A stretch of DNA of 64,000 bases from Flammeovirgaceae bacterium (GTDB lineage: Bacteria > Bacteroidota > Bacteroidia > Cytophagales > Cyclobacteriaceae): positions 2,665,225-2,729,224 of the forward strand of contig CP054185.1 in assembly GCA_015180985.1 (NCBI GenBank), written 5' to 3'. Below the pieces are notes generated by a model, which did no database searches, had not been told where the DNA came from, and saw only the letters and a list, made by a program, of their open reading frames with translations. Position numbers and translations under genes: made by a program. Within the stretch, counting starts at the first letter, position 1, and each line of letters starts with the position of its first letter. Shown here piece by piece: positions 45,385 through 60,302 of the stretch.

Positions 45385-46737
45385 CTGAACGATACCATCA
45401 TTGCACCCGCTACACCCCAGGGCATTTCGGCCATTGCCGTGGTAAGGCTTTCAGGTAAAAATTGCATTCACCTGGTACAGCAGGTTTTTTTCGGAAAGGA
45501 TCTTACCACTGTACCCACGCACACCATTCACTTTGGTACCATTCGCGATGACGACAGGATTATTGATGAAGTGCTGGTATCCGTATTCCATGAAGGCACA
45601 TCCTACACCAGCGAAAATGCCGTGGAAATTTCCTGTCATGGCTCACCGGTTGTGGTAAAGGAAATCATCAACCTGCTGGTTAAGAAAGGCGCACGCCTGG
45701 CCCAGCCCGGAGAATTTACCAAACGGGCCTTCCTGCATGGCAGGCTGGACCTGACCCAGGCCGAAGCCGTGGCCGACATCATCCATGCCGAAACAGAAAA
45801 TGCGCGCCAGGCCGCCATTAACCAGATGCGTGGCGGGTTTTCGAAAGAAATAAACCGGCTACGCGATGAACTAATCCATTTTGCCTCGCTCATTGAACTG
45901 GAACTTGATTTTGGCGAGGAGGATGTGGAGTTTGCCAAACGCGATGAATTGAAAAACCTGATCCTGAAAATCCAATACTTCGTTCAATCCCTCGTTCAGT
46001 CTTTTGATCAGGGCAACGTAATTAAAAACGGAGTACCAACCGTGATTGCCGGCAGGCCCAATGCGGGTAAGTCAACATTGCTGAACTTGCTGTTAAATGA
46101 AGAGCGCGCCATCGTATCGGACATACCGGGCACTACCCGCGATGTAATTGAAGATGAAATGGTGCTGAACGGCATTGCCTTCCGGTTTATCGACACGGCC
46201 GGCTTGCGCGAAACCTCCGACACCATCGAGGCCATTGGCGTGGAGCGTACCCGCCAGCAGATGGAGAAGGCTTCGCTTATTCTGTATGTTATCGATTTAA
46301 CCGACACAACACCGCAGGCCGTCCAACAGGAAGAAACGGAACTTAAAAATCTCGGCATCCCCTATATCCTTATCGGGAACAAACTGGACAAAGCCCGGCC
46401 CGAACTGATTGAAAAGCTGAAAAAAAATTTAGTACTTATTTCGGCTTCGAAGCACACCAATATTGAGGCACTCAAGGAAGCCATACTCACGCGCGTTCAT
46501 GTTAACCGGGTAAAAACCGGTGATGTGCTGGTAACCAATGTTCGCCATTACCAGAACCTGCTGCAAACAAAGGATGCCCTACAGCGCGTACTTGAAGGAA
46601 TGGAAAAAGGAATAACCGGTGACTTTCTGGCCATGGACATCCGCCAGGCCTTGCACTTTCTGGGCGAGATTACAGGCGCCATCACCACCGATGATTTGCT
46701 GGAGAATATATTTTCAAAATTTTGTATCGGAAAGTAA
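45385..46737 (+). CDS. mnmE: tRNA modification GTPase MnmE
   Basis: 450 aa if begun at CTG 45385. MnmE with MnmG modifies wobble U34 of tRNAs. The folate-binding N-domain continues upstream of the first usual start (GTG 45439) as NDTIIAPATPQGISAIAVVRLSG, which matches the family's N-terminus, and stays open to a stop at 45364. No ATG, GTG or TTG occurs there, so a rare start (CTG 45385 fits best, or CTG 45373/ATT 45367) is likely. G-domain motifs GRPNAGKST, DTAG and NKLD are present; the C-terminal catalytic motif FCIGK is intact. Its 3' end is the insertion site of the island. Confidence 0.9.
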   Translation: MNDTIIAPATPQGISAIAVVRLSGKNCIHLVQQVFFGKDLTTVPTHTIHFGTIRDDDRIIDEVLVSVFHEGTSYTSENAVEISCHGSPVVVKEIINLLVKKGARLAQPGEFTKRAFLHGRLDLTQAEAVADIIHAETENARQAAINQMRGGFSKEINRLRDELIHFASLIELELDFGEEDVEFAKRDELKNLILKIQYFVQSLVQSFDQGNVIKNGVPTVIAGRPNAGKSTLLNLLLNEERAIVSDIPGTTRDVIEDEMVLNGIAFRFIDTAGLRETSDTIEAIGVERTRQQMEKASLILYVIDLTDTTPQAVQQEETELKNLGIPYILIGNKLDKARPELIEKLKKNLVLISASKHTNIEALKEAILTRVHVNRVKTGDVLVTNVRHYQNLLQTKDALQRVLEGMEKGITGDFLAMDIRQALHFLGEITGAITTDDLLENIFSKFCIGK

Positions 46738-46739
46738 TC
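46681..46739 (+). repeat. Left direct repeat (attL-like), end of mnmE
   Basis: 59 bp encoding ITTDDLLENIFSKFCIGK plus stop. Identical to 60244-60302 except at 46710 (A here, T at 60273), which is a synonymous Ile codon change (ATA against ATT). Confidence 0.9.
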
Positions 46740-46747
46740 TCAACCAT

Positions 46748-47398
46748 TCACTGCACTTCGAGTTTATACAAGCCATTATCAATTGCATACTTAACCAGAC
46801 CCACACTATTTTTTGCACCGGTTTTTTCAAGAATTCTATACCTGTGATTAAAGTACGTTTTTTCACTAATCTGCAGACGTTCGCTAATCTCCACCGGTGA
46901 TAATTCATCACAAATAAGCAAAAGAATTTCAAGTTCTCTGGGGCTTAATTTATAGTAGTCACTTCTATTCTGTTTCCTTGCTGGAAGCCTCTTCAGAACG
47001 CGGGTAACCATTTCATTTCTATAAAAATCTTTATCGACAACAGCGTAAAGTGCTTTTTCAAGCTCTTCGGCCGAACTGTTTTTGCTTAAAAAACCATGAA
47101 CACCTAAGTCCAGCATCCGTACCACAAAAACATCCTCCATATGCATGGTCAGCATTAGGATTTTCACTTGAGGGAAGTGTTCTAAAATATATTTCGCACA
47201 CTCCATCCCGCCCATTACTGGCATTTCAATATCTAGAATTACAACATGTGGAACATGTTGCTCCATAAGAGTTAGCAATTCACGGCCGTTACCGACTTCT
47301 TTCACATGTTGAACCCTAGCAAAGGATTTTAATAGCCGCATCATACCACTTCGAACTACTGCATGATCATCAGCTAGATATACTTTGAGCATGTTCAT
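46748..47398 (-). CDS. LuxR/NarL-type response regulator 1
   Basis: 216 aa from ATG 47398 (214 from the nearby ATG 47392, MLKVYLADDH). Receiver domain with acidic pocket ADDH, phospho-acceptor Asp in ILDIEMP (D54 from the second ATG), and conserved Lys in LSKN. The C-terminal LuxR helix-turn-helix (~150-210) includes KLSPRELEILLLICDELSPV and ISEKTYFNHRYRIL. It overlaps the kinase gene by ~29 bp, so the two are paired. A perfect 17-bp inverted repeat lies 42 bp upstream, inside the kinase gene, suggesting separate autoregulated expression. Confidence 0.9.
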   Translation of the reverse strand: MNMLKVYLADDHAVVRSGMMRLLKSFARVQHVKEVGNGRELLTLMEQHVPHVVILDIEMPVMGGMECAKYILEHFPQVKILMLTMHMEDVFVVRMLDLGVHGFLSKNSSAEELEKALYAVVDKDFYRNEMVTRVLKRLPARKQNRSDYYKLSPRELEILLLICDELSPVEISERLQISEKTYFNHRYRILEKTGAKNSVGLVKYAIDNGLYKLEVQ

Positions 47399-48185
47399 AG
47401 ATAAAAGGTACCTGAATCTGCACAAAACTTCCATTACCGATAGGAGGAACTCCTATTTGCATTTTTGCCTGAAGTTGTTTAACCCTAAGTTTAATATTCC
47501 ACCACCCAAAACCTGTACCGGTGCTTTTGATCGAAAAACCAATCCCGTTATCCTGGACAGTTACTACCATCACGTCCTTACCAAACTCAATACTTACATT
47601 GACGACCAGTGCTTTACTGTGCTGAAGACTGTTGCTTATCAATTCCTGAATTATCCTATACACCGACAATGCTCGGTCATCATTAAGAACTAGATCTGTA
47701 TGGTCACATTTAAACGCAACAGTTAACCCTTTTCCGTTTAATCTTTCACATAAAAGTCTGACAGATTCACAAAGCCCCAAACTGTGGAATAAACCGGGAG
47801 TTAATTCCCAGGAAATTCGCTTAACTGCTTCAACAGCCTGCTCAAGAGATGTCAATAAATCAGTATAAGCAGATTTTGCATCTCCAATTAGTGGAAGAGA
47901 ACGTTCAAGAAACAAGGCATTAAGTTTGGCACCGCTGAGCAATGAACCTAGTGAGTCATGTAAATCTGCTGCGATTCGTTTTCTTTCGTTCTCCTGGCTC
48001 TGCAATTGTGCATGAACCATCCGGTGTTGAAAAATCTGTTCAAGTTTTTTCTGCCTTTCCTGTTCCATGATCAAGCGTTTTTGATAAATAGTTATAAATA
48101 CAGCGATGCTTCCAACAAGAAACAATATCAGGCATGAACCAATTACGATGATAATGAGGATTTCACGTTGCGGTAATTCTGCCAT
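47370..48185 (-). CDS. Membrane-anchored histidine kinase (HisKA_3 type)
   Basis: 271 aa. One N-terminal membrane helix (~9-33), a short coiled coil, the dimerisation and phospho-acceptor motif ERKRIAADLHDSLGS, and an HATPase_c domain with N-box ELISNSLQHS and G-boxes DNGIGF and GTGFGWWNI. This NarX/DesK-like kinase class partners LuxR-type regulators, and one follows at once. It has almost no external sensor, so the upstream multi-pass membrane protein, whose gene overlaps it by 43 bp, may do the sensing (inference). Confidence 0.9.
   Translation of the reverse strand: MAELPQREILIIIVIGSCLILFLVGSIAVFITIYQKRLIMEQERQKKLEQIFQHRMVHAQLQSQENERKRIAADLHDSLGSLLSGAKLNALFLERSLPLIGDAKSAYTDLLTSLEQAVEAVKRISWELTPGLFHSLGLCESVRLLCERLNGKGLTVAFKCDHTDLVLNDDRALSVYRIIQELISNSLQHSKALVVNVSIEFGKDVMVVTVQDNGIGFSIKSTGTGFGWWNIKLRVKQLQAKMQIGVPPIGNGSFVQIQVPFIYEHAQSISS
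47403..47456 (-). promoter_or_regulatory. Operator site a and -7 element upstream of response regulator 1
   Basis: ATAGGAG-GAA-CTCCTAT at 47440-47456, perfect 7-bp arms. On the minus strand TACCTTTT (plus 47403-47410) matches seven of eight positions of TAnnTTTG. The centre of the repeat is 38 bp from the first base of the -7 element, the same as at site c. Confidence 0.65.
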
Positions 48186-48731
48186 AATGCAATCGCGAAA
48201 AGAAGGTTTTTGATAACATTCAACAAGTTATGCAAAATCCATACACTGCGCTGAAAAGCCGGAGTTTCCGAAAGGTAATTTCCTGCTAAAAACAAAAAAA
48301 AATTACCTCCGTAATAAACCAGTATGGCAAAGCAAATCCACAGCATTGGCAGTTTATGGATATGCAAGACCGGCAAATCGTGCAATAACCGGTACAAATA
48401 GTACATGGAAAAGGTAATGAGAATAATACTAGCCAATACGTTAGAAGCCGAATTAAGCTTCCATGGACCCTCATAGAAAATAATGTTAAAAGTAAAGAAG
48501 ATTACAAAGAAAACGTATACAATCAGAGAAGTTTTTATAAAATAAGATTGTTTCTTAAATAAATATGCTAACAATGAAAACTGGATCAACAAAAATATAT
48601 TCCCAATCAACAAAGAATTTAGACCATGATGGATAATAACAACAGAAATGATATCTGCTACCAAAGAAAAAATCAGAATTAAAACAATTGGCCAGAGCTC
48701 GGGACTAATGGACCGGTAAGTGGCTGGGAAT
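48143..48731 (-). pseudogene. Multi-pass membrane protein, C-terminal part (split by IS3 element)
   Basis: From about KFPATYRSISPELWPIVLI to the stop at 48143: ~195 residues with six hydrophobic segments, no known domain. The frame runs on into the IS3 element up to 49042, but those codons are IS sequence. The missing N-terminus (first helix) lies on the other side of the element at 50040-50137. Together they would make a ~225-residue, probably seven-helix protein. It overlaps the kinase gene, pointing to a sensor or partner role. Confidence 0.75.
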
Positions 48732-48908
48732 TTTGACAGGTTGTAATTATAGATTAAGGTTTTGAGTTTTGCAATAGCTTTACCTGCGTGGCTGCGATTG
48801 GAAACCTCAGCGAACAAGCAGGGTTTGCACTGAAAAAAGTTTTGGGCTGTCATACTGATGGCCCATACTTTTTTTAGGGAAACAGAAAAAGAGTTTCCCA
48901 TGTAGGTA

Positions 48909-49682
48909 TCACGCAGCATAGGCCATGGGTGTTTGATAGTTGAGCGCCTGGTGTGGCCTTTTATGGTTGTAATCATCGACCCACTTGTGAGTGACTTGCC
49001 GGGCGTTATCCAGTGAGCTGAATACGTTGGCATCCAACACATCTTCGCGATAAGTTTTGTTGAATCGTTCGATGATGGCGTTCTGTTGCGGCTTTCCTTT
49101 CTGTATCGGGTTCCACTGGATGTGGTTGTTGTGCATCCAGTTCATAAAGCGTTTGGCGCGGAACTCAGGGCCGTTGTCGGTACGGATGCTGAGCGGTTTG
49201 CCGTACCGCTCAATGGCACGCTCCAATGCTTCTATTACCCTTCTGGCCGGCAGGTTAAAGTCCACCTCAATACCCATACACTGGCGGTTGAAATGGTCCA
49301 CGATGTTGAGTGTGCGGAATGTACGCCCGCTATCCAGGGCATCGCTCATAAAGTCCATGGCCCACTCGATATTGGCCTGCAGGGGTATAGAAAGGGGGTT
49401 GGCGGGGTTGTCTTTGATGCGCTTGCGCAGTTTGCGGTGAAGGGAAAACCCTTCACGCTCATATACTCTGCGAATTTTACTGTCGCCCCATTCCGGGTGA
49501 TTCTTTTGTACCAGCTTGATTACCTTCATCCTTCCCTTACGGCTTGTTCCGATGACTTGTTCGATTGCTTTTTTTACCACGGCATCTTTGGCCGGCATCC
49601 GCTTGCGGTAATACTTTTTAGTACGCGAACAGCCCACCAGTTTGCACGCCCGGACATGGCTCATTCGAAACTGCTTCTTCAA
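48909..49682 (-). CDS. IS3-family transposase orfB (DDE integrase domain)
   Basis: 257 aa as an independent frame from TTG 49682. HTH_21 region (ERKLRKRIKDN), then an rve/DDE catalytic core with D in WAMDFMSD, D in RTDNGPEF and E in NAIIERFN, ending RPHQALNYQTPMAYAA. The frame is open upstream to about 49727, and the protein is most likely made as an OrfAB fusion through a -1 frameshift on A6G at the end of orfA. Intact, so the element may be active. Confidence 0.92.
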   Translation of the reverse strand: MKKQFRMSHVRACKLVGCSRTKKYYRKRMPAKDAVVKKAIEQVIGTSRKGRMKVIKLVQKNHPEWGDSKIRRVYEREGFSLHRKLRKRIKDNPANPLSIPLQANIEWAMDFMSDALDSGRTFRTLNIVDHFNRQCMGIEVDFNLPARRVIEALERAIERYGKPLSIRTDNGPEFRAKRFMNWMHNNHIQWNPIQKGKPQQNAIIERFNKTYREDVLDANVFSSLDNARQVTHKWVDDYNHKRPHQALNYQTPMAYAA

Positions 49683-49714
49683 ATGGGCCAGGCCGTGTTC
49701 TTTTTGTCCGGGCG

Positions 49715-49984
49715 TCAGAACTTTTTTGAGAGCAGGTCTTTTATGGCATCAATCTCCAGGCTCTGGTTGGCCACAATTTTCTTGAGCCTCGCATTTTCAT
49801 ACTCAAGTTCTTTAAGTCGCTTAAGTTCGTCAACGGTCATGCCCGCGTACTTGCTGCGCCAATTGTAGAACGTAGCCTCGCTAATACCATGCTTGCGGCA
49901 TACTTCGGCCACCTTCTGGTCTTGTTGGATTTGTTCGTTGAGGATGCCAATAATCTGGGCCTCGGTAAATTTGCTCTTCTTCAT
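49715..49984 (-). CDS. IS3-family transposase orfA
   Basis: 89 aa. N-terminal helix-turn-helix of the IS3/IS911 type (KFTEAQIIGILNEQIQQDQK, CRKHGISEATFYNWRSKY) that binds the inverted repeats, followed by a leucine-zipper coiled coil (LKRLKELEYENARLKKIV). Complete. Confidence 0.93.
   Translation of the reverse strand: MKKSKFTEAQIIGILNEQIQQDQKVAEVCRKHGISEATFYNWRSKYAGMTVDELKRLKELEYENARLKKIVANQSLEIDAIKDLLSKKF
49721..49728 (-). other. Probable programmed -1 frameshift site
   Basis: Minus strand CAAAAAAG (A6G slippery run) lies three codons before the orfA stop. Slipping back one base continues into the open orfB frame (KKVLTPGQKEHGLAH...). Frameshifting on A6G is the standard way IS3 elements make OrfAB. 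Confidence 0.7.
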
Positions 49985-50039
49985 TTTGACTTTTTTTGGT
50001 CGGTTAAATTAGAAAATCCTACTTTTAACCTGTTCAAAA

Positions 50040-50137
50040 AAAGCAGCCTAGTACCGACCGCTTTACAATTATCGGTATAGCAATAGGAATCAGTACGGAG
50101 GCAAGGGAGAGGTAGCCAATCGCATATTCAAGCTCCA
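50040..50137 (-). pseudogene. Multi-pass membrane protein, N-terminal part (split by IS3 element)
   Basis: ATG 50137 begins MELEYAIGYLSLASVLIPIA and continues through one hydrophobic helix to KRSVLGC, where the IS3 element starts. It lies 43 bp downstream of the 116-aa gene and lines up with the C-terminal part at 48143-48731. Too short to be found as a separate gene. Confidence 0.65.
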
Positions 50138-50180
50138 TAAATCGGAGGCTTAACAATAAGACCTACCACAAAATAGCCAC

Positions 50181-50531
50181 TTATAATTTATTGTCAGGAC
50201 AATATGGAGGACAAGGAAAAGACACATCCCCGATTTGATTATCTCCGCCTTCACCACCGGCAGCGGTGCCAGCCTGAGGCAACAAGTTATTGCCTTTGGA
50301 ATTGGTGCCAACCAATAGTAATTGTTTGTTTCCTTTATCATCGATTGCATAATAAATCCGTATGCCCGAGCAATCTCCTTCTGCAAGAATTCTTAAAATA
50401 AGGTCTCTGCCAAAGTAATGTGCCTCGGTTTCACCGGGGTGCTTTACCCTGTAATTAGCTGTCCACCTTTTTGCAGTTGTAAGGTCTATCGGTCCGCCAT
50501 CAGTACCGTCATATTTTGGTCCATTAGCCAT
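50181..50531 (-). CDS. Small orphan protein, first gene of the island signalling operon 1
   Basis: 116 aa, no signal peptide or membrane helix. Conserved-looking blocks are KYDGTDGGPIDLTTAKRWT, ETEAHYFGRDLILRIL and IRIYYAIDDKGNKQLLLVGT, followed by a Gly-rich stretch and a short Cys/Pro tail FPCPPYCPDN. I recall similar small proteins in Cytophagales but know no function. It has an own promoter with operator site b and is followed by the membrane-protein, kinase and regulator genes. Confidence 0.75.
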   Translation of the reverse strand: MANGPKYDGTDGGPIDLTTAKRWTANYRVKHPGETEAHYFGRDLILRILAEGDCSGIRIYYAIDDKGNKQLLLVGTNSKGNNLLPQAGTAAGGEGGDNQIGDVSFPCPPYCPDNKL

Positions 50532-50565
50532 TGTCTTGAGGTTTTAGTTCGAACTCAACAATCGG

Positions 50566-50609
50566 CAAAACTAGGTTTATCCAAACTGGAACATAGGAGT
50601 TTCTCCTAT
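50566..50609 (-). promoter_or_regulatory. Operator site b and promoter of signalling operon 1
   Basis: ATAGGAG-TTT-CTCCTAT at 50593-50609 with perfect arms. On the minus strand TAGTTTTG (plus 50566-50573) is a full TAnnTTTG. The repeat centre is 28 bp from the -7 element, exactly 10 bp (one helix turn) closer than at sites a and c. ATG at 50531. Confidence 0.7.
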
Positions 50610-50783
50610 AAATCTTAGTTATTCACAACCAGGACGAACCGTTCAGATTGTGACCTCCCGCTTACCAAAATCAAATCTGAATTCACTGCGCCATCATTTC
50701 CGGACTATTAAATCCCGAATGATTGGGCTGGCAAAATCTTGTTTCTTCGTATGGATTTAGATTATTATCCCAAACCATAGGTT

Positions 50784-50836
50784 ATAGGAGTAATTCCTAT
50801 GTTAAAAGGAATAAAAAAATAGGCCAGCATAATTTG
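50784..50836 (+). promoter_or_regulatory. Operator site c and promoter of the divergent pair
   Basis: ATAGGAG-TAA-TTCCTAT at 50784-50800 (one arm mismatch) and TAATTTG at 50830-50836 as the -7 element; ATG 50842. The whole intergenic region 50532-50841 (310 bp) holds sites b and c for the two divergent operons, plus a loose inverted repeat TTCAGATT / AATCTGAA near 50642-50680. No gene is seen in it. Confidence 0.65.
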
Positions 50837-50841
50837 GACTT

Positions 50842-51024
50842 ATGTGGATAAGAACCCTTGTCCGAAGAGTTTTGATGATGGTTGCTATTGCAATTACAAT
50901 ATTTGTGTTACTTGTTTCTAACTTGCGTCAAAACAACAATACCGATTTGTTACTTTGGTCATTGTCTGTATTTGTAGTTTCGCTAATTTTTTTTGTATTA
51001 CGACTGGGTAAAAAATATGAATAG
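50842..51024 (+). CDS. Small two-helix membrane protein
   Basis: 60 aa, with hydrophobic segments ~8-27 and ~36-54 joined by the polar SNLRQNNNTD. No known motif. It overlaps the DUF1493 gene by 8 bp, so both are translated from one message. Function unknown; the pair may be targets of the island regulator because operator site c precedes them. Confidence 0.6.
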   Translation: MWIRTLVRRVLMMVAIAITIFVLLVSNLRQNNNTDLLLWSLSVFVVSLIFFVLRLGKKYE

Positions 51025-51484
51025 TAAAGGATACACCAGAGAAGCACTTGAGCAAGCGCCTAACCATATTTCATACAGAAACTGGTATAATAGCATACTA
51101 CTGGTGAAGAGGTTTGTGGCGGCTGAAACTGGGTATCATGTAAATTTGAATACTGAATTAGAAAATGAATTGGGTCTTTCAGGCGATTTAGCTTGGGAAT
51201 TTATGGAGCGGTTTGGTAAAGTCTTTGATGTAAATATGGAGGAATTCAAGTTGAATTTCCTAAAGTACTTCAGGCCGAATTCTTCTTACGTAAGTCTACT
51301 TACGCTTCACCTAATGTTTGAAATACCAGTGAAAGCAATCCAACATTTATTCAAAGGAAATACTCAGCGATTCGGTGAGCATCTCTTTGATTCCAAAGAA
51401 TATGATTTGACTATCGGAGATCTTGTAGCTAGTGTGGTCAAAAAAAAATTTTGCTTACGAGAAAAATTAAAGCGTATTCGTTAA
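51017..51484 (+). CDS. DUF1493-like protein
   Basis: 155 aa from ATG 51017 (MNSKGYTREALEQ). The central block LENELGLSGDLAWEFMERFG followed by FDVNMEEFKLNFLKYFRP matches the acyl-carrier-like DUF1493 family pattern, short proteins of unknown role found near regulators in enterobacteria. No Ser attachment site for phosphopantetheine is evident. A longer start at 50993 would overlap the small membrane gene further and is not preferred. A strong terminator follows. Confidence 0.65.
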   Translation: MNSKGYTREALEQAPNHISYRNWYNSILLVKRFVAAETGYHVNLNTELENELGLSGDLAWEFMERFGKVFDVNMEEFKLNFLKYFRPNSSYVSLLTLHLMFEIPVKAIQHLFKGNTQRFGEHLFDSKEYDLTIGDLVASVVKKKFCLREKLKRIR

Positions 51485-51486
51485 AA

Positions 51487-51525
51487 CAGAAAAGCAGCCT
51501 GTTTTCCTAACAGGCTGCTTTTCTG
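51487..51525. terminator. Strong bidirectional terminator
   Basis: 17-bp perfect stem (51487-51503 with 51509-51525; contains AAAAGCAGCCTG) and a TTCCT loop, with A and T runs in the arms. It separates the DUF1493 gene from the convergent PD40 gene. Confidence 0.88.
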
Positions 51526-51544
51526 AAACTCTACATAGAAGCAT

Positions 51545-52127
51545 TTATAGTGCAGCCACGGCTGAATTCCCTGATTTTCCCGGTCTATTCTCTTGTTGTT
51601 TAACGGGCAACGCAAATAACTTATCCATTGAAATTCGGAACAAATCAACATTATGAACACTTACCTGACGTGAAAAAACTGCATAGTTACCGCAATGTGT
51701 AATACTGAAAAACTCGTCATCGAGTGAACTATTCACTGCGGGGCCCAAATTTTCAGGTTCACTCCAGTTTAACCACGTGTCATCTAAACGCTTGGTTACA
51801 TAAATATCATAACCACCATATCCATTGTGCCCTCTTGAAGCAAAGTAAAGGGTTCTGTTATCAGCAGCAAGGAATGGTGAAGATTCTTCCATTTCGGTAT
51901 TGATAACCCCGCCCATATTGAGAGGCTGTCCGGCTACTTTTCCGTTCCAGAAGCTAACATATAGATCGCGGCCACCGTAAGAGTCAACACGCTGTACTGA
52001 TTGGATGATGACGCCTGTGCTCAGCGAAACGTAAGCATTCGCATGATTTGACATATTGTAATCATCCTGAATTTGAATCGACTGAGGGGCTGACCAACGG
52101 CCTCGGATGTTCACGCTATAAGATAAG
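51545..52127 (-). pseudogene. PD40 beta-propeller protein, C-terminal part (split by IS256 element)
   Basis: ~190 residues with PD40/TolB-type propeller repeats (TLYFASRGHNGYGGYDIYVTK and DEFFSITHCGNYAVFSRQ). An open frame begins at GTG 52132, but those first codons lie in the IS. After removal of the 1401-bp element and one 8-bp target copy, it fuses in frame to 53529-54042 (AGLS then YSVNIRGRWS), giving a 362-aa protein. Confidence 0.85.
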
Positions 52128-53528
52128 GACACTGCCTAATTAAGTGTGTAAGTGCTGGGTAACGACTAAGCAACTGCGTAAAGGTTTTATATTTTGCATC
52201 TGCCTTCGAAGATAGTTAAAAATTGATTTACGATTAGTGGCCAGTTTCTCACGGGCAAGGTCCATTTTTTGGTGATCTCCCGTAAAGCCAGGTACACCGC
52301 TTTCACCACCGCCTGGTCGTCAGGGAACGAAAGTTTGTTGTTGGTATACTTGCGGATTTTTCCGTTGAGATTTTCGATAATGTTCGTGGTATAGATCAGC
52401 GTTCGGATTTCGATCGGATAATCGAAGAAGTGCGTGAGGTTATCCCAATTCGTTTTCCACGACTTGATAGCATGCGGATATTTTTTGCCCCATGTTACTT
52501 CAAGCTGCTCTAAGGCTTGAGCAGCCAGCTCTTTGTTTGGTGCTCCGTAAACAGTCTTCAAATCGGCTACAAATTGTTTCTTGTCTTTCCAGACAACGTA
52601 GCGAAGCGCATTTCTGATCTGATGAACTACACAAATCTGGGTTACCGATTGGGTAAACACGCTGGTGATTGCATCGGTGAAGCCCTTCAGATTATCGGTG
52701 CTGGTGATGAGAATATCTTCCACGCCACGGCTTTTTAAATCAGTAAGTACACTTATCCAGAATGAAGCACTTTCGCTTTCACCCAGCCACATGCCCAATA
52801 CTTCCTTAAACCCCTGAGCATTAAGGCCTACGGCCAGGTAAATGGTTTTGTTGATCACCTTCCCATTCTGCCGGACTTTGAATACGATCCCATCCATCCA
52901 CACCACAAAGTACACCGATGAAAGAGGCCTGCTTTGCCACTCCGTTACCAACGTATGTACCCGCGAGGTAACGTTGGAAATAGTGGCATCCGAAACATTC
53001 ACACCATAGATTTCCCGGATTTGTATTTCAATGTCGCGTACGCTCATACCCCGGGCATATAAGGAGATGATAATTTCTTCGATGCCTTCTACGAACCGGC
53101 TGCGCTTGGGAACCAGGACGGGCTCAAACGTGCTGTTCCGATCCCGAGGTACTTCTATCTGTAGTTCACCTCGCGTGGTCTTGATGGTCTTACGGGTTTT
53201 TCCGTTCCGTGAGTTCCCGGAGTTAATCCCTTCTGGTGAATGTTTGGCATAGCCCAAATGGCCATCGAGTTCACCTTCCAGCATTTGCTCCATGCCCTTT
53301 TTGAAAAGTTCATCGATAAAGCTGTTGAGGTCTTTCGAATTCTTAAATTGCTTGAGAAACTCAGGGGTGAGCATCTCTTTGAGTAGTGGGTGTTGTTCTT
53401 GATTTTCCATGGTAACTGTGTTTAAAGTTAAGTCTTTAAATGCAACCGATTCGGCTGAAAGTGGTACATTCCACATCCCCTTTCAGCAAGGCCGAATCGG
53501 GCCTTTACACAGTTGCTTAGTCGTTACC
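52128..53528 (-). mobile_element. IS256-family insertion sequence with 8-bp target duplication
   Basis: 1401 bp. Target-site duplication AAGATAAG at 52120-52127 and 53529-53536. Imperfect ~25-bp terminal inverted repeats at 52128-52152 and 53504-53528 (shared CTAA and TGTGTAA blocks). A second, better copy of the right-end repeat (GGTAACGACTAAGC...) sits just inside the left end at 52158-52184. Encodes one intact transposase. It interrupts the PD40 gene. Confidence 0.92.
52187..53410 (-). CDS. IS256-family transposase (mutator type)
   Basis: 407 aa from ATG 53410 (MENQEQHPLLKEML). DDE transposase with first Asp in VVWMDGIVFKV, second in TSTDNLKGF, the family CVVHQIRNALRYV and TTNIIENLNGKIRK motifs. 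Complete, so probably functional. A frame extension to 53476 is noncanonical and not preferred. Confidence 0.95.
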   Translation of the reverse strand: MENQEQHPLLKEMLTPEFLKQFKNSKDLNSFIDELFKKGMEQMLEGELDGHLGYAKHSPEGINSGNSRNGKTRKTIKTTRGELQIEVPRDRNSTFEPVLVPKRSRFVEGIEEIIISLYARGMSVRDIEIQIREIYGVNVSDATISNVTSRVHTLVTEWQSRPLSSVYFVVWMDGIVFKVRQNGKVINKTIYLAVGLNAQGFKEVLGMWLGESESASFWISVLTDLKSRGVEDILITSTDNLKGFTDAITSVFTQSVTQICVVHQIRNALRYVVWKDKKQFVADLKTVYGAPNKELAAQALEQLEVTWGKKYPHAIKSWKTNWDNLTHFFDYPIEIRTLIYTTNIIENLNGKIRKYTNNKLSFPDDQAVVKAVYLALREITKKWTLPVRNWPLIVNQFLTIFEGRCKI

Positions 53529-54042
53529 AAGATAAGCCTGCTTTCATTTTACCATTTTTCAGGTATTGATTGCCAAGAATAATTGTGTCGCCTGTTAAAC
53601 TTACATTGTTTATAAAATTTGGTCCGGCATTGTTCAATTCACCATGCATCCGAATCGGGTCGGACCACCTTCCGGTGTGTTCATCAAACTCCGAATACCA
53701 GATATCCTCCTGGTCGAATTCACCAAACGTATTGTTCGGATGTGCAAATCTGCTGAAATACAATCGTTTGCCACAGGGAGCCATGACGGGTTTAAGTTCT
53801 TCGTAAGGTCCGTTAATGGCAGGGTTGATTGCAGTTGCTTGAGTATCAAATTTGACGTTTGCGTGATGCTTGATGCCTTTGCCTGCATTTTTAATCAGGC
53901 TAAGTGGTTTGTCTACTGTAAAGTTTGCCAAGCTTGTTTGCTCCGGTTGCGAAAAACAAGAATAGATACCAACAGTTAGAAATACTAAAAATACCATTCC
54001 TGCATTTAGGATTCTCTCGATGATTCTTACTTTAAGTGTCAT
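53529..54042 (-). pseudogene. PD40 beta-propeller protein, N-terminal part (split by IS256 element)
   Basis: From ATG 54042: a signal peptide or N-terminal membrane helix (RILNAGMVFLVFLTVGIYSC), then propeller repeats (YEELKPVMAPCGKRLYFSRF, EDIWYSEFDEHTGRWSDPIR, TGDTIILGNQYLKNGKMKAG). Upstream frame to 54165 is not needed. Secreted or periplasmic propeller proteins of this type sense or bind partners. The gene ends in the IS element and resumes at 52127. Confidence 0.85.
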
Positions 54043-54080
54043 TTTTTTGTTGTTTAAGTTTTCTACTTGATTTAGTGACA

Positions 54081-54130
54081 CAAAGGTTTGATAATTGACA
54101 AGGCTACAAATCAGGGCATTCCTGATTTGT
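54081..54130 (-). promoter_or_regulatory. PD40 gene promoter with AATCAGGG-type inverted repeat
   Basis: ACAAATCAGG-N5-CCTGATTTGT at 54106-54130, perfect 10-bp arms. On the minus strand a TTTG (54110-54107), 18-bp spacer and AACCTTTG (plus 54081-54088) form a promoter for ATG 54042. The repeat covers the -33 region and sequence just upstream. Confidence 0.6.
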
Positions 54131-54134
54131 AAAA

Positions 54135-54274
54135 AATCAGGGAATAGGCCAAAATTTTTAGTCAAGACCCGGGCTTTTGAAAATTTACTGCTAGGAACAT
54201 TGAAGACTCTAATCAGGGAAGCCAGCCAAATGAACTGTGGTCTAGCTGAAGTAAATCAGGGAAAACCCTGAGTT
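54135..54274. repeat. Further AATCAGGG half-sites and an inverted repeat
   Basis: AATCAGGG recurs in the same orientation at 54135-54142, 54211-54218 and 54254-54261; the last forms AAATCAGGG-aaaa-CCCTGAGTT (54253-54274). The last could also act as a hairpin terminator after response regulator 2 (stop at 54276). Otherwise the gap 54043-54275 holds no gene. Confidence 0.55.
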
Positions 54275-54275
54275 T

Positions 54276-54935
54276 TCAGAGTTTGTCCACCGAAATAATA
54301 TGATTTTTAATCGCATACTTAATCAATTCAGCTGTGTTTCTGAGGCCAAGCTTCTCAAGAATATGTGTTTTATGTGTCTCCACTGTTTTTACACTAATAA
54401 ACAAGGCTTCAGCTACCTCACGATTAGTTTTCCCACTCGCTACGTGTCCTAATACTTCATATTCGCGTGCGGTTAGCTCATTGGGTAGTCTTCTATCTGT
54501 GCTTTTCAATTTTTCGCTTGCATAAAACTCTTCAAATACAAGTTTCATAATAGCCTCATTAAAGTATCGCTCTCCGTTGTACACGGCACGAATAGATTCT
54601 ATCAATACTTCCTTATCAACATCTTTGGGAAGATATCCCTCAACACCCGCCTTGATAGCAGCTGAAACATAATCCTTGCTAATTTCCATGGTAACAATAA
54701 GAACTTTTATGGTGGAGTCAATGTCCTTTATCCAGCGAGTGGTTTCTATACCAGTCATCCCACTCATAAGTATGTCCATCAAAATCACATCCGGTCGATT
54801 ATTACGAACTGCGTTAACCGCAAATTCACCTGAATGCACAGAGCCTATTACTTCAATGTCCTCTATAGTCTCAAGCATTGCTTGAATGCCATCCCGGATT
54901 AACTTGTGATCATCTGTAATCAATACTTTAATCAT
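54276..54935 (-). CDS. LuxR/NarL-type response regulator 2
   Basis: 219 aa. Receiver with ITDDH acidic pair and phospho-acceptor D54 in ILMDILMSG; LuxR helix-turn-helix (~150-212: ELTAREYEVLGHVASGKTNR, ISVKTVETHKTHILEKLGLR). One bp downstream of the PAS kinase gene. Likely the regulator that reads the AATCAGGG repeats in front of the next gene, the PD40 gene (inference from position). Confidence 0.93.
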   Translation of the reverse strand: MIKVLITDDHKLIRDGIQAMLETIEDIEVIGSVHSGEFAVNAVRNNRPDVILMDILMSGMTGIETTRWIKDIDSTIKVLIVTMEISKDYVSAAIKAGVEGYLPKDVDKEVLIESIRAVYNGERYFNEAIMKLVFEEFYASEKLKSTDRRLPNELTAREYEVLGHVASGKTNREVAEALFISVKTVETHKTHILEKLGLRNTAELIKYAIKNHIISVDKL

Positions 54936-54936
54936 G

Positions 54937-56445
54937 TTATATATTTAATGGTATGCTTACAGTGAATTTAGTTCCCTCACCAGGCTGACTTTTAACAGTT
55001 ATTGAGCCATTCAGAAGTTCAACTGCTTTTTTTACAATGGAAAGGCCTAAACCGGTTCCTTCTATAGCCAAGGCTCTAGACCCCCGAAGAAACGGATCAA
55101 AAATTTTCGCAAGTTCATTACGTGGAATGCCTATTCCAAAATCGCTTACAGAAACAACCAAGTATCCACCTACACATTCAGCATCAAATAAGACACATTC
55201 TTTGCCTGGAGAGAATTTTATTGCATTTGAAAGTAGATTTGTAAAAATGCTTCGAAGCAATTTTGCATCACTTATCATGCATTCGGTAATGTTTATAAAA
55301 TTCGTTTCAATCCTGTGAGTCCTCTCATCGCATTTTTCAAGATCTTCCTTAACCGCCTGAAGTAATTCACGAATTGTGATAGAGGACATAACGGGCTGAA
55401 TTTTACCTGCTTCGCCTTTACCATATGTAAGCACATCATCAAGTAGTAACATCATGTGACGCACATTTTTCTCAATTTCATTTGCCTTTAATTGAAGGGC
55501 AGAAACACTATGCTCTTTTGCCAGCTTTTTTACTAATTCTAGGTCAGCTTGAATGGCCGCCAGGGGTGTTCGGAATTCATGCGAAGCTATGGAAACAAAC
55601 CGGTTTTTCATTTCAACTACCTCTCGCTCTTTCCTTAGCGCCTGTAAAAGTTCCCTGGTTCGCTCTTCCACCCGTACCTCCAATAATTTCCGGTATTCCA
55701 TAAGTTCAGTAACATCCTGACCAACAAGGGCAAATCCAACAACCGAATCACTTGAAGAATAACGCGCTGTACCACTTATTAGGACAATGATTCTCCCTCC
55801 ATTTTTAGTAATCAGGGTAATTTCTTGGTTGCTCACCTGACCTTTTGATAATATTCGATCAAGCAATTCCCTAAATGAATGACGCTCAGTTTCAGGTAAT
55901 ATAGTATCCGCAAAACGTTGAGCAAACACTTCATTTTTTGAATAACCGGTAACCTGTGCTGTATGCTCATTCCATTCTGTTACATAACCTCGTGTATCAA
56001 GCCCAATAATAATTGCGTTGGATTTCTCAATTAGCCTATTTATGTTCTTTGCCTGACTAACCAGTTTCCGTTCAAAAATCTTTTGTGGCGTAATGTCTCG
56101 TATGATAATATAAATCATCGGTAAGTTATTGTGCCGGTCAAACACAGGTGCATAGGTTATGGAGAGGTAAAACGGACAGTTATTAGGTCCGGCATATTCA
56201 ACTTCAGTTCGATACGGGACACGAGCCTTAATAACTTCGTTTATTATCTCCTGTACCATCCCCTCACGATCAGTCCGAACGATTTCATTCAATAGAATTC
56301 CAGGGGCTATAGGCCGTCTTGCTAATATTGCCACTTCACTGTGTTGGGTGCTATGAAAAAGAATTTTTCCCTCTGAATCAGTGACTATAAATAAATCACC
56401 TGTAAGCTTTAGAATAGAGGGTATATCGATATCCTCATTTCGCAT
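54937..56445 (-). CDS. PAS-domain histidine kinase
   Basis: 502 aa, soluble. Two PAS domains (~10-125, ~135-255; LFIVTDSEGKILFH and AIIIGLDTRGYVTEWNEHTA), a coiled coil, HisKA with SIASHEFRTPL (His ~290), then HATPase_c with LLSNAIKFSP, DFGIGI and GTGLGLSIV. Cytoplasmic, so it senses an internal signal or gets input from the other kinases of this operon. Immediately precedes response regulator 2 and is its probable phosphodonor. Confidence 0.92.
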   Translation of the reverse strand: MRNEDIDIPSILKLTGDLFIVTDSEGKILFHSTQHSEVAILARRPIAPGILLNEIVRTDREGMVQEIINEVIKARVPYRTEVEYAGPNNCPFYLSITYAPVFDRHNNLPMIYIIIRDITPQKIFERKLVSQAKNINRLIEKSNAIIIGLDTRGYVTEWNEHTAQVTGYSKNEVFAQRFADTILPETERHSFRELLDRILSKGQVSNQEITLITKNGGRIIVLISGTARYSSSDSVVGFALVGQDVTELMEYRKLLEVRVEERTRELLQALRKEREVVEMKNRFVSIASHEFRTPLAAIQADLELVKKLAKEHSVSALQLKANEIEKNVRHMMLLLDDVLTYGKGEAGKIQPVMSSITIRELLQAVKEDLEKCDERTHRIETNFINITECMISDAKLLRSIFTNLLSNAIKFSPGKECVLFDAECVGGYLVVSVSDFGIGIPRNELAKIFDPFLRGSRALAIEGTGLGLSIVKKAVELLNGSITVKSQPGEGTKFTVSIPLNI

Positions 56446-56456
56446 CGTAGCTCTAA

Positions 56457-57575
56457 CTAACTAGGCTGCTTATTTGGAATTATTACGGTAAACAAAGTAT
56501 ATTCACCCGCCTTCGACTCAACATTAATACTGCCCTTCAGCTTAGCAACAGCTTCTTTTACAATATAGAGTCCCAAACCCGCTCCTTCACTCCGTTCTGT
56601 AGCTCGGAAAAACATTTCAAAAATGCGTGGCTGAAGTTCTTCTGATATGCCAATGCCATTGTCGCGGATCAAAAAAACTGCTTCAAGGGATACCACTGAG
56701 ACCTGTATTGATACATAGCTGTCGACAAACGGATTGCGATATTTGATAGCATTTGAGAACAAGTTGGTGAGTATTATTGATAGACGGCCGGTATCAGAAT
56801 AAAAAGGTACAGACTGTTTGGTATGTAACTGGAAATCAATCTTATCGTACCCAACAAGGTATCTTAAATTCTGAAGCAGACTTATTATAAGGGTATCAAG
56901 CTTGACTTCTGTGAATACCATTTCCGTTCTGGAGTTTTTAGAATAGTCGATGATCTCTTTAACTGTTTCATCTAACTTGTGTATGCTCTTAGTCATCATA
57001 TCCCAATAATGTTGAAAACGCTTATGGTTATCATCACGCTCGGCAAGTTGGATAAGACCTAGAACTGATAGCAGGGGCGCTCTTAAGTTATGCGAAACGC
57101 TATAAACAAAATTGTCAAGTTCACGATAAACTTTTATCAGCTCTTCATTTTGTTTTCGAAGATTTTTTTCGGCACTCTTTCTGTTGCGCTCCATTTCATA
57201 ATGTCTCAGTGAACTTGCGATTGCTGTTGAAAGTCTTGAAAGATTCGATTTAAGAACGTAATCATCGGCACCAAGTTTTAGGCAGCTTACGGCAAATTCT
57301 TCCGAAACCGCACCGGTAACAAGGATAAAAGGTATGGCTACATGTTGATGCTTAAGCAGCTTAAGAGCTTCAATTGAATTGAATTGGGGCAGGGCATGGT
57401 CAGAAAGAATAACATCAGGAAGGTAATCATTAAGTGCCTCAACGAAAGCTTGCCGTGTTTCTACCCTTTTTCGGATAAACATAAGGCCATCCTTTCTGAG
57501 TTGCCGTTCAATAAGCATTGCATCATCCTCCAGATCCTCAAGCATAAGAATTTTAAGTTCTTTCATACTTTTCAT
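56457..57575 (-). CDS. Hybrid protein: N-terminal receiver plus histidine kinase
   Basis: 372 aa. Receiver (1-125) with LEDLEDD and phospho-acceptor D59 in ILSDHALP, coiled coil, HisKA with YSVSHNLRAPL (H162), HATPase_c with LFSNAIKYR, DNGIGI and GAGLGLYIV. A receiver before the kinase suggests it is switched by phosphorylation from an upstream kinase, a relay step. It sits between a CheY-like receiver gene and a PAS kinase gene with gaps of 7 and 11 bp. Confidence 0.9.
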   Translation of the reverse strand: MKSMKELKILMLEDLEDDAMLIERQLRKDGLMFIRKRVETRQAFVEALNDYLPDVILSDHALPQFNSIEALKLLKHQHVAIPFILVTGAVSEEFAVSCLKLGADDYVLKSNLSRLSTAIASSLRHYEMERNRKSAEKNLRKQNEELIKVYRELDNFVYSVSHNLRAPLLSVLGLIQLAERDDNHKRFQHYWDMMTKSIHKLDETVKEIIDYSKNSRTEMVFTEVKLDTLIISLLQNLRYLVGYDKIDFQLHTKQSVPFYSDTGRLSIILTNLFSNAIKYRNPFVDSYVSIQVSVVSLEAVFLIRDNGIGISEELQPRIFEMFFRATERSEGAGLGLYIVKEAVAKLKGSINVESKAGEYTLFTVIIPNKQPS

Positions 57576-57582
57576 GCCCTAA

Positions 57583-58008
57583 TTACTTTTTGGGTGGTTG
57601 ATTTAAGACCAGCCAAAACATTCCTAATTTTGTAACGGCTTCTACAAACTTATCAAAATCAACTGGCTTTACGATGTATGCATTTACTCCTAACTTATAT
57701 GAGTCAATGATATCACGTTCTTCTTTGGATGAAGTGAGAACAACCACGGGAATCACACATTTACCCAAATCAGATTTTATTTTCCTGAGGACTTCAATAC
57801 CATCAATTTTAGGCATTTTAAGATCCAAAAGAATAAGTTTTGGAAACGGGACTGACCGTGTATCAAACAGAAAGTTCAAAGCTTCTTGACCATCTTTTAA
57901 GTGAAGAAGATTGTTGGCCAAGTTATGTTGACGAAGTGTACGAATGGTTAACTCTGCATCCTCAGCGCTATCTTCAATAAGCAATATTTCTACAACATTA
58001 GGATCCAT
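57583..58008 (-). CDS. Single-domain CheY-like response regulator (Rcp1-like)
   Basis: 141 aa, receiver only. [10 protein letters not shown] acidic pocket, D62 in [16 protein letters not shown] and conserved Lys in IVKPVDF. Receivers of this form ([14 protein letters not shown]) usually partner phytochrome-like kinases. It follows the membrane kinase gene by 8 bp. With no output domain it probably shuttles phosphate to the hybrid protein. Confidence 0.92.
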
Positions 58009-58016
58009 AAGGTCAC

Positions 58017-60104
58017 CTATTTAGGTAATGAAAATGTAAAAGTTGCACCAGCATCAACTTGGCCGCTGGCCCAAATTAAACCACCATGCCGTTTAATGAT
58101 TCGTTTAGTCAGGGCTAAACCTACACCAGTACCTTCAAACTCCTGTAAACTGTGCAATCGCTGAAACACCTCGAACAACTTATTGCTATAGCGTTCATCA
58201 AACCCGGCTCCGTTATCACTGACCGAGTAATGAATTTCCTCTTCCAATTCCTTGCAGGCAATTTTAATAATTGCAACTTCCTTTTTGCTAGTATATTTTA
58301 ATGCATTCGATATGAGGTTAATCCAAACCTGACCTATCATTGTCAGGTCAGCTTTGGCATTGATCAATTCATCAATCGTGAGTTCAATCTTCCGAGCATT
58401 CTCATGCGATATTAGTTCATCAGCAATTCCGCGGACAAGTTGATTCATATTAACTTCTGAAACTCTTAACTCCTGCCTTCCTGTTCGGGATAAATTAAGA
58501 AGGTCGTCAATTAATTGCCCCATTCTTTGCGCATTGCGAATAACCGTATCAAGGATACGTATACCCTCATTGTCAAGATTACTAGCAAAGTCCTGTTTCA
58601 GAATCGTTGCGAAACTGTGAATGGATCGCAATGGAGCCCTTAAGTCGTGTGATACTGAATAGGTAAATGCCTCCAGTTCCGCATTTAATTGTTTGATCTT
58701 GTTCTCTTTCTCCTTGCGTTCGGTAATATCGCGAATAGCCGCAATTATAAACATACCATCGCCTGTTTGAATCGGACTTAGGCTGATCTCAACGGGTACC
58801 ATACGTCCATCTTTCCGGAAGGCATTAAGTTCTATACCCGCTCCCATTGGTCTTTTTGTAGGATGTTTAACAAAAGCCATTCTATGGTTTGTATGAATTA
58901 CTCTCAGATCTCCTGGAACAAGCATCTCAACTTTCTGTCCAATCATTTCATGCCGTGTAAATCCAAAAATTGCCTCGCTTTGATTATTGACCATTTGAAT
59001 ATTGCCATTCTGATCAGCGATTATCAAAGCATCAGGAGATGAGTCAATGAACGAGGCAAGACGCGCTTCCAGTTTCTTTCTGTCCGAAATATCAAACACT
59101 GTTGTTGTACTCTTATAAAAATTTCCTTGTTGATCAAAGAGAGCAGCGCTGTTCACCAATACAGGGAATTTAGTGCCATCTTTTCGTTTGAATTCAAACT
59201 CAAGGCCATGTACATACCCTTTGATTTTGTATTCTTCGAAGTCCTTTTCGAATGATTCCAGAAAGTGAGTTTTGCTTTCATCTGTAAGGAGATCCTCGTA
59301 CTTAAGTTTACCGACAATTTCATCAACCGAATACCCCAACCAGTTAAGGAGTGTTTGATTGATATTGGTGATCCTGATATCCGAATCTACTGAAAGATAG
59401 CCGCATGGTGCATTGTCGTATAGAACATGTATATCACGTAATGCATTTGATAGAAACTTCTCCGATTTCAGATGCTTTTTCATGATATGGTTGACAGTGT
59501 AGAAAAGAATCGTGATAGTCAATCCAGTAACAATCAAAAGCCCTAGGAAGGCAACCTGAAATGCAACTAACTTTTCTTTGTTAAACGTATTGTACGGAAT
59601 AACTTTACTATCTTGTTGGATTGCCTTAATGATATGCTTTATTTGAAGCAAAATATTTTTTCCAATTCCTGATGAAACGAGTTGGTTTGCACTATCTCTG
59701 CTTACCTTTCTTGCTTCGATAACATTATCAGTCCAACTCATTTTCTCTTTTAGCAAAAATTGCAGGGTATCCATACCGGTAGTTCGTGATTGGTCAGCGG
59801 TTACTATACCCTCCAAATCTTCAACAATGCGAAAAAGAGCATATTTCAAATTGTAGTAAGATTCCAAATAATAGTCATTAGCGGTTATTACAAAACCCAA
59901 TTGTACTGTTTCCATCTCGATAGCATGAGCAAGAAGTTGGTTGGATACGGCAATCACTCTATTTGTTTGATTAAGTTGCCGTGAATTTCGAATTAATCCA
60001 ACGATAGTTAAATAGGTATAAACACCAAGTCCGGAAATGGTTGCAATAGCCAGAATAAAACCTGCAAGCAAATTCCTGCTGGTATAAAGCATATCCAACT
60101 GCAT
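58017..60104 (-). CDS. Membrane histidine kinase with CHASE3-like and two PAS domains
   Basis: 695 aa. Membrane helix ~12-32, a helical extracytoplasmic CHASE3-like sensor (~35-180: [19 protein letters not shown]), second helix ~185-208, PAS (~225-340), PAS (~345-465), HisKA with [13 protein letters not shown], and HATPase_c with [16 protein letters not shown] and [12 protein letters not shown]. First gene of the six-gene phosphorelay operon. Operator site d lies 56 bp upstream. Confidence 0.92.
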
Positions 60105-60159
60105 TTAAATAATTTACCTTCCTCAGTTTATGAATTTTGAAGGGCTAATAAGGTTTGTT

Positions 60160-60176
60160 ATGGGAGTAACTCCTAT
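60160..60176 (-). promoter_or_regulatory. Operator site d upstream of the phosphorelay operon
   Basis: ATGGGAG-TAA-CTCCTAT, one arm mismatch against the consensus ATAGGAG-N3-CTCCTAT. 56 bp before ATG 60104. No clear TAnnTTTG was found between the site and the start. Confidence 0.5.
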
Positions 60177-60243
60177 ATAAGCTAAAGAATGATCTATGCA
60201 AAAATTCTCCTAACTAATGTACTTCCTGAGTGATACAGAAGTA

Positions 60244-60302
60244 ATCACCACCGATGATTTGCTGGAGAATATTTTTTCAAAATTTTGTATCGGAAAGTAA
60301 TC
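60244..60302 (+). repeat. Right direct repeat (attR-like), orphan copy of the mnmE 3' end
   Basis: 59 bp, one synonymous difference from 46681-46739. Upstream bases do not match mnmE, so this is not a full duplicate gene. A tiny frame from ATG 60217 runs into it (27 residues) and is probably chance. Confidence 0.9.

Follow-up and report, generated by a model that had tools for sequence, protein, structure and literature searches.

A palindromic operator in an uncultured genus of Cyclobacteriaceae and a LuxR-type response regulator as its candidate binder

Which protein recognizes a 17-base palindrome that is repeated within one small genomic island, and which genes does it control? The question is raised by a 64,000-nucleotide stretch of DNA from a Flammeovirgaceae bacterium (the window; G000:C1:2665225-2729224 of a 3.38 Mb single-contig genome), in which a first-pass annotation had described the palindrome as the binding site of an island regulator. 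Here we propose, with a rough probability of 0.78, that the consensus ATAGGAGTWACTCCTAT (from 95 fetched sites of relatives and the four sites of the window) is the operator of response regulator 1 (RR1, 46748-47398, minus strand), a LuxR/NarL-type protein that would activate its own operon and others. The motif, its distribution, its intergenic placement, its spacing to a promoter element and its co-occurrence with RR1 are read directly from the genomes.

From these sequences we infer the following scheme. RR1 would be phosphorylated, presumably by the neighbouring HisKA_3 kinase, and a dimer would occupy both half-sites, each of 7 bp and one helix turn (10 bp) from the other, centre to centre. 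Bound RR1 would activate Bacteroidota promoters in which the -7 element starts 38 bp from the centre of the operator. Its targets in the window genome would be RR1's own operon, a divergent DUF1493-like pair and a phosphorelay operon, while in other species of the genus they would extend to tens of promoters, including those of sensor genes, secreted proteins, peptide-export genes and unrelated anti-phage systems. The 116-aa and seven-transmembrane (7TM) proteins of the RR1 operon may be part of the signal input.

The palindrome and its promoters

Direct sequence matching bears out the four annotated sites, with palindromes at 47440, 50593, 50784 and 60160 (two exact, two with one mismatch), and the distances of 42-62 bp to the gene starts are correct. 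Site 2 (50593-50609, ATAGGAGTTTCTCCTAT) is the putative operator of the operon encoding the 116-aa protein, the 7TM protein, the histidine kinase and RR1. Site 3 (50784-50800, ATAGGAGTAATTCCTAT) is the putative operator of a divergent pair encoding a small membrane protein and the DUF1493-like protein, and site 4 (60160-60176, ATGGGAGTAACTCCTAT) that of the phosphorelay operon, of which a CHASE3-PAS kinase gene is the first. The placement of all sites at island promoters holds for these three but not for site 1 (47440-47456, palindrome ATAGGAGGAACTCCTAT), a doubtful operator that lies 42 bp ahead of the RR1 start codon, inside the 3' end of the histidine-kinase open reading frame (ORF) at 47370-48185.

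Within the window, six matches were found at up to three mismatches, compared with 1.45 expected, and a count of six was reached in none of 100 shuffles. The whole genome contains exactly four sites with at most one mismatch, every one of them inside the island. At up to two mismatches there are two additional sites, one at 46952 inside the RR1 gene (left out of the operator count) and one at 1607463, outside any open frame of at least 100 codons. The reversed pattern, used as a control, gave one match at up to one mismatch and 14 at up to two, compared with six for the motif, so that only the class with at most one mismatch is informative in this genome.

The distribution was then followed through 17 genomes of the same uncultured genus (G000, the window genome, to G016) and 82 genomes outside it. 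At up to one mismatch, the genus contains 102 sites (from G000 to G016: 4, 7, 13, 0, 1, 0, 1, 10, 3, 26, 0, 0, 31, 0, 0, 3 and 3) versus nine reversed-pattern controls (0-2 per genome). The five richest genomes have 26 sites versus 0, 31 versus 2, 13 versus 0, 10 versus 1 and 7 versus 0. The 82 other genomes together contain 69 sites versus 87 controls, i.e. no general excess, with a slight surplus in G080 (5 versus 0) and G083 (6 versus 2). The proposed concentration of the motif in the island thus describes the window genome but not its relatives, which carry up to 31 sites each, spread over several contigs; the genus scan rules out island-only regulation.

For the analyses below, the 95 of the 102 genus sites that lie in fetched loci were pooled; the four of G000 were handled apart (listing and logo only), and one site of G004 and two of G008 were left out. 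The coding fraction is 0.76, and none of the 95 centres falls within an ORF of at least 100 aa. Between 36 reciprocal pairs of sites from different genomes, the spacer letters, left free in the search, are 86-94% identical and the flanks ∼55%. At one seemingly equivalent place in three genomes the operator lies between convergent genes (L121:4221, L135:4394 and L152:4247), where a small RNA or a short ORF may start.

An excerpt of a published study gives TAnnTTTG at -7 as the Bacteroidetes consensus (PMC7366714). Counted relative to the operator centre without strand choice, TA is seen 43 times at +38 among the 95 sites of relatives (mean of 12.6 per position), and TAnnTT 24 times (mean of 1.56, next highest 6); with similar flanks removed, 80 sites remain, with TAnnTT 18 times at +38 (mean of 1.27). 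Promoters aligned on +38 have T at +42 in 84% and at +43 in 67%. A fixed operator distance upstream of the -7 element, as in an activator-type Bacteroidota promoter, is found at +38 in G002, G009 and G012, and an operator standing directly upstream of a promoter without a distal element looks like an activator site.

In the window, the annotated spacings of 38, 28 and 38 bp are correct, and the first of these values coincides with the peak in the relatives. The elements themselves are less uniform than the three clear copies of TAnnTTTG originally described: the exact sequence is present only at site 2 (TAGTTTTG, 50566-50573, minus strand, +28). Site 3 has the -7-like TAATTTGG at +38 (50830-50837, plus strand) and a second TA at +28, site 1 has the -7-like TACCTTTT at +38 (47403-47410, minus strand), which is also kinase-coding, and site 4 reads TAAACTGA at +38. 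The +28 class seen at site 2 is not significant among the pooled 95 sites, and +28 is the tied maximum, with a count of 5, among the 10 sites of G007.

Chance occurrence of the motif is rejected by the window shuffles, the genome and genus scans, the intergenic placement and the spacing. Action at the RNA level, in which a 7-bp hairpin would hide a Shine-Dalgarno-like AGGAG, is disfavoured and very improbable. The motif does contain AGGAG and CTCCT, and the stem is perfect, but the constant distance to the promoter element implies that the site precedes the transcribed region, some sites fall between convergent genes, and the gene-strand RNA of site 4 has a C-A mismatch; in addition, Bacteroidetes naturally lack Shine-Dalgarno sequences, according to an excerpt of PMC6847099. 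It is also unlikely that the sites are repressor operators, at which RR1 or its unphosphorylated form would keep genes off until a signal arrives. Such a role would fit the sites that lie <30 bp from a start codon. It would also suit the cost of defence genes, of which some are kept repressed; the WYL regulator BrxR, for example, is a reported repressor (PMC9122601). The position of the operator centre favours activation by RR1 over repression: it often lies at a constant 38 bp ahead of the -7 core, as is typical of activators, and no -33 box stands out at these promoters.

At site 1 we lean towards a mere coding coincidence, with the palindrome encoding Ile-Gly-Val-Pro-Pro-Ile of the kinase; a function as operator is somewhat less likely, because no site of the relatives falls within a long ORF. 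The equivalent codons in G006, L167 and L169 have 2, 2 and 1 mismatches, respectively, and five other orthologues have no site at this position. Coincidence is less easily reconciled with the exact 14/14 match combined with TACCTTTT at +38, or with the comparable intragenic site carried by L169; with the transposase splitting site 2 from the remainder of the operon, an internal promoter could also be of advantage.

Candidate regulators

RR1 consists of a receiver domain (Response_reg, 3.3e-25, 88.8 bits) and a LuxR/GerE-type helix-turn-helix (HTH) domain (GerE, 1.8e-11, 43.9 bits), both above the Pfam cut-off, with the recognition helix SEKTYFNHR. The gene is overlapped at its upstream end by that of the histidine kinase (47370-48185, minus strand; HisKA_3, 35.7 bits; HATPase_c, 38.1 bits). 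Orthologues with 56-73% identity to RR1 are encoded in G001, G002, G006, G007, G009 and G015, and the operator is present upstream of the RR1 operon in all seven genomes with a readable start (these six and G000). Contig L167, which has no long match to the other loci, also carries an exact site, which lies ahead of the small-protein gene that belongs to its RR1 operon, and in contig L169 this part of the operon is missing.

Paralogous operons, whose regulators are ∼44-49% identical to RR1, provide a comparison. The operator is absent from all five that were fetched, even at three mismatches within the fetched loci, and two further paralogous operons (G001 and G007) have no site with at most one mismatch nearby, as judged by coordinates. 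The recognition helix of each of the five reads S[ED][HN]TVRNHR, and SEKT[FY]FNHR is confined to the RR1 group in a 15-row alignment. The other 76 loci, at ≤43% identity, contain two sites at up to two mismatches versus six for the control. Because the operator accompanies seven of seven RR1 operons versus none of five paralogous operons with a different helix, RR1 is the best candidate for its binder.

Genome-wide counts point the same way: sites are more numerous in the eight RR1-bearing genomes, the window genome among them, than in the remaining nine (Mann-Whitney P 0.0008, uncorrected for kinship). The operator is also present before the CHASE3-kinase operon in G002, G009 and G012 (L085, L088 and L125), and with two mismatches in G015 (L091). 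Receiver-less GerE proteins with the RR1 helix are encoded beside RR1 in G007 (L090:18040-18306), G015 (L091:6827-7087) and G001 (L092:8974-9213); an operator-like site with two mismatches is found upstream of these genes in G007 and G015, and none in G001.

The main competitor is response regulator 2 (RR2, 54276-54935, minus strand), also of the LuxR/GerE type. It is rather unlikely that RR2, or another regulator of the network, binds the operator and that RR1 merely co-travels. RR2 orthologues (49-80% identity) occur in the eight RR1 genomes and in G008; in G002, G009 and G012 the distance from RR2 to an operator is ∼2.7 kb, and in G000 and G015 RR2 is encoded within the operator-led phosphorelay cluster. 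However, in G001, G007 and G008 the 50 kb on either side of RR2 are, by coordinates, free of operators at up to one mismatch, and the RR2 recognition helix SVKTVETHK, which we take to be of a generic type, differs from that of RR1. The constant presence of the operator at RR1 operons, and the receiver-less proteins that keep the RR1 helix (with upstream sites in two of their three genomes), likewise favour RR1.

The attribution of the site to an island regulator, most likely RR1, thus stands for the operator and for RR1 as best candidate, qualified by the nearly equal co-occurrence of RR2. The proposed control by RR1 of its own operon, the divergent pair and the phosphorelay operon agrees with operators at sites 2, 3 and 4, except that the RR1 operon has its operator at site 2 rather than at site 1.

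Several observations weigh against activation by RR1 as proposed. The genomes share ancestry, so that the P value of 0.0008 is too optimistic, and RR2 co-occurs with the sites almost as well as RR1. In G012 the RR1 gene is represented by a fragment of the DNA-binding domain only (66% identity), at a contig end and with the same neighbour genes. The +38 peak stems from G002, G009 and G012; in G001, G006, G007 and G015 (21 sites) it is absent, and four TAnnTT occur at +37 (mean of 0.27). The promoters aligned on +38 have no clear -33 box, and several sites fall between convergent genes, as in L121, L135 and L152.

Genes behind the operator

The functions of operator-led genes were studied in G009 and G012, whose 57 sites lead a target set of 128 proteins (the first four downstream genes encoding at least 80 aa). 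Hallmark defence genes are present in the operons led by 14 of the 57 sites, a count made by hand that may miss some, with 40 of the 128 proteins scanned singly. The 14 are L077 5481, L080 7843 and 10110, L108, L109, L116, L117 and L119 in G012, and L083 5528 and 7510, L087 11058, L131, L136 and L139 in G009. Three others were considered too soft for inclusion: L078 14057 (KAP NTPase), L112 (LmuB-like) and L086 19521 (ResIII helicase).

The systems behind the operator are diverse. They include type I restriction-modification (R-M) operons, a Thoeris III system (ThcB4, 448.6 bits versus a cut-off of 220, with SLOG LD_cluster3 and ThsB_TIR), an AAA-DUF4435 protein, an OLD-like AAA-TOPRIM protein, an AAA_15-DUF3696 protein (with HEC-03B and NsnB model matches), a SIR2-STAND protein and a second SIR2 protein. 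A further operon encodes components of ubiquitin-like conjugation (DUF2604, Metal_CEHH, a weak Prok-JAB match and a Prok-E2_C-ThiF fusion), an operon type known from anti-phage defence. Two near-identical operator-led type I R-M operons lie ∼8.7 kb apart in G012 (L108:4560 and L109:3298). The operator and ∼30 bp after it are common to four unrelated operons (L115:6204, L116:3269, L117:4673 and L136:3977), encoding a lipase, Thoeris III, AAA-DUF4435 and SIR2-STAND, like a reusable promoter cassette.

In a PADLOC search, the 128 target proteins match 318 models, many of which are alternative models of type I subunits. For comparison, 20 regions of the same genomes were drawn at random; one of them (L250), with a site inside it, was set aside, and the 140 proteins of the other 19 match 46 models, of which the 25 commonest listed mostly resemble generic ATPases and helicases. 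In G009 and G012 alone, genuine defence systems have the operator in front of them at a higher rate than chance would give. Asked the other way round, the data are mixed. An operator precedes four of the six type I HsdM genes (E<1e-50) of G009 and G012, including two near-identical copies, and none of the seven in G001, G006, G007 and G015. Of SIR2_2 genes over the cut-off, it precedes two of three in G009, none of one in G012 and none of one in G007. AAA_15, which matches in all 17 genomes, was rejected as too generic for a defence marker.

Other operator-led genes encode sensor kinases, regulators, secreted proteins (three with Por_Secre_tail) and subtilases, and many sites lead genes without a family match. 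One operator-led gene set (L079:1712-9112) resembles peptide export: it encodes an ABC transporter with a C39 peptidase, a protein weakly similar to HlyD and a small protein whose leader, as read by eye, is of the GG type.

In the window genome, none of the four sites lies beside a recognised defence gene. Taken together, the genomes suggest a larger picture of a genus-wide regulon that is partly anti-phage, with no recognised operator-led defence genes in the window genome. We give an even chance to the more specific proposal of a genus-wide two-component immune regulon, in which one LuxR-type regulator would act through a nearly invariant 17-bp operator and switch on many unrelated anti-phage systems plus secreted and peptide-export genes throughout the chromosome, and new defence operons would be drafted by gaining the operator, some of them as a ready-made promoter cassette; the window island would then be a controller without its arsenal.

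The island genes around the operators complete the description. Behind site 2, the first gene encodes the 116-aa protein (50181-50531, minus strand), which has homologues in 11 of the 17 genus genomes and matches no Pfam or NCBIfam family; its predicted structure is unusable (mean pLDDT, the predicted local distance difference test score, 44.5). This family heads RR1-type operons and similar operons of the paralogous systems, and its members in G001, G007 and G015 have a lipoprotein-like leader. Transposase ORFs (48909-49984, minus strand), named by eye as IS3 type, split site 2 and the 116-aa gene from the rest of the RR1 operon; inverted repeats were sought at the ends of this element and none was convincing. 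The multi-transmembrane (7TM) protein follows (48143-48880, minus strand), with a start that is lost or diverged relative to G006. Behind site 3 lie a 60-aa membrane ORF (50842-51024, plus strand) without a Pfam match and the gene for the DUF1493-like protein (51017-51484, plus strand), which scores 19.2 bits, under the Pfam cut-off of 21.

Behind site 4, the phosphorelay operon (minus strand) encodes in turn the CHASE3-PAS histidine kinase (58017-60104, Pfam scan), a single-domain receiver (57583-58008, translation read by eye), a receiver-kinase hybrid (56457-57575, Pfam scan) and a PAS histidine kinase (54937-56445, translation read by eye), next to RR2. Between these groups, a transposase ORF (52187-53476) with 30-nt inverted repeats (52155-52184 and 53502-53531) separates ORFs 53524-54165 and 51545-52132, which match (60 and 70%) the first and second part, respectively, of one intact protein of G015 (L091:13308-14381, 357 aa). 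The 13.5 kb island is flanked by a near-direct repeat of the mnmE gene end (46671-46739 and 60234-60302, 93% over 69 nt), and reading by eye the ORFs that these repeats enclose revealed no integrase gene.

Comparison with known systems

Islands of the SGI1-like type sit at the 3' end of mnmE/trmE. The window island is like them in being bounded by a duplicated mnmE end, and unlike them in that no integrase was recognised by eye in its 13.5 kb.

By its domains RR1 is a member of the NarL/FixJ (LuxR-type) regulators, which it resembles in the receiver followed by a GerE-type HTH, the adjoining HisKA_3 kinase and a palindromic operator near the promoter. It falls outside the named equivalogs that were tested, scoring far under the NCBIfam cut-offs for GacA/UvrY (143.1 of 280 bits), NarL (95.1 of 250) and RcsB (92.5 of 235). 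The operators also differ. NarL and NarP recognize heptamers in a 7-2-7 arrangement of other sequence, whereas the operator described here is a 7-3-7 ATAGGAG/CTCCTAT, different in its 3-bp spacer and in sequence, and does not have the NarL heptamers.

Two reported controls of immune genes are closer in function. BrxR, a WYL-type protein, is described in an excerpt of PMC9122601 as a repressor that binds inverted repeats and is encoded in its defence island. RR1 is like BrxR as a transcription factor acting on inverted repeats at phage-defence genes, but BrxR is a local repressor and RR1 would act, as part of a two-component system, as an activator of many loci; a Pfam scan of RR1 found no match to the WYL domain. 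The Rsm/Csr pathway controls several CRISPR-Cas systems in Serratia, according to an excerpt of PMC8450108. It is alike in placing several immune systems under one pathway, and unlike in being post-transcriptional and directed at CRISPR-Cas, whereas here a DNA operator is common to unrelated systems, in Bacteroidota. Among the literature matches listed, no title or abstract opening describes this motif or a mixed-defence two-component regulon in Bacteroidota.

To our knowledge, how bacteria coordinate their separate immune systems is a largely open question, and the known controls are local repressors or are directed at CRISPR-Cas. A common operator, by comparison, would predict membership of the arsenal and name its regulator; operator-led operons without a family match would be candidates for new systems of defence or competition, and a single sensor system may turn on an entire set of immune genes.

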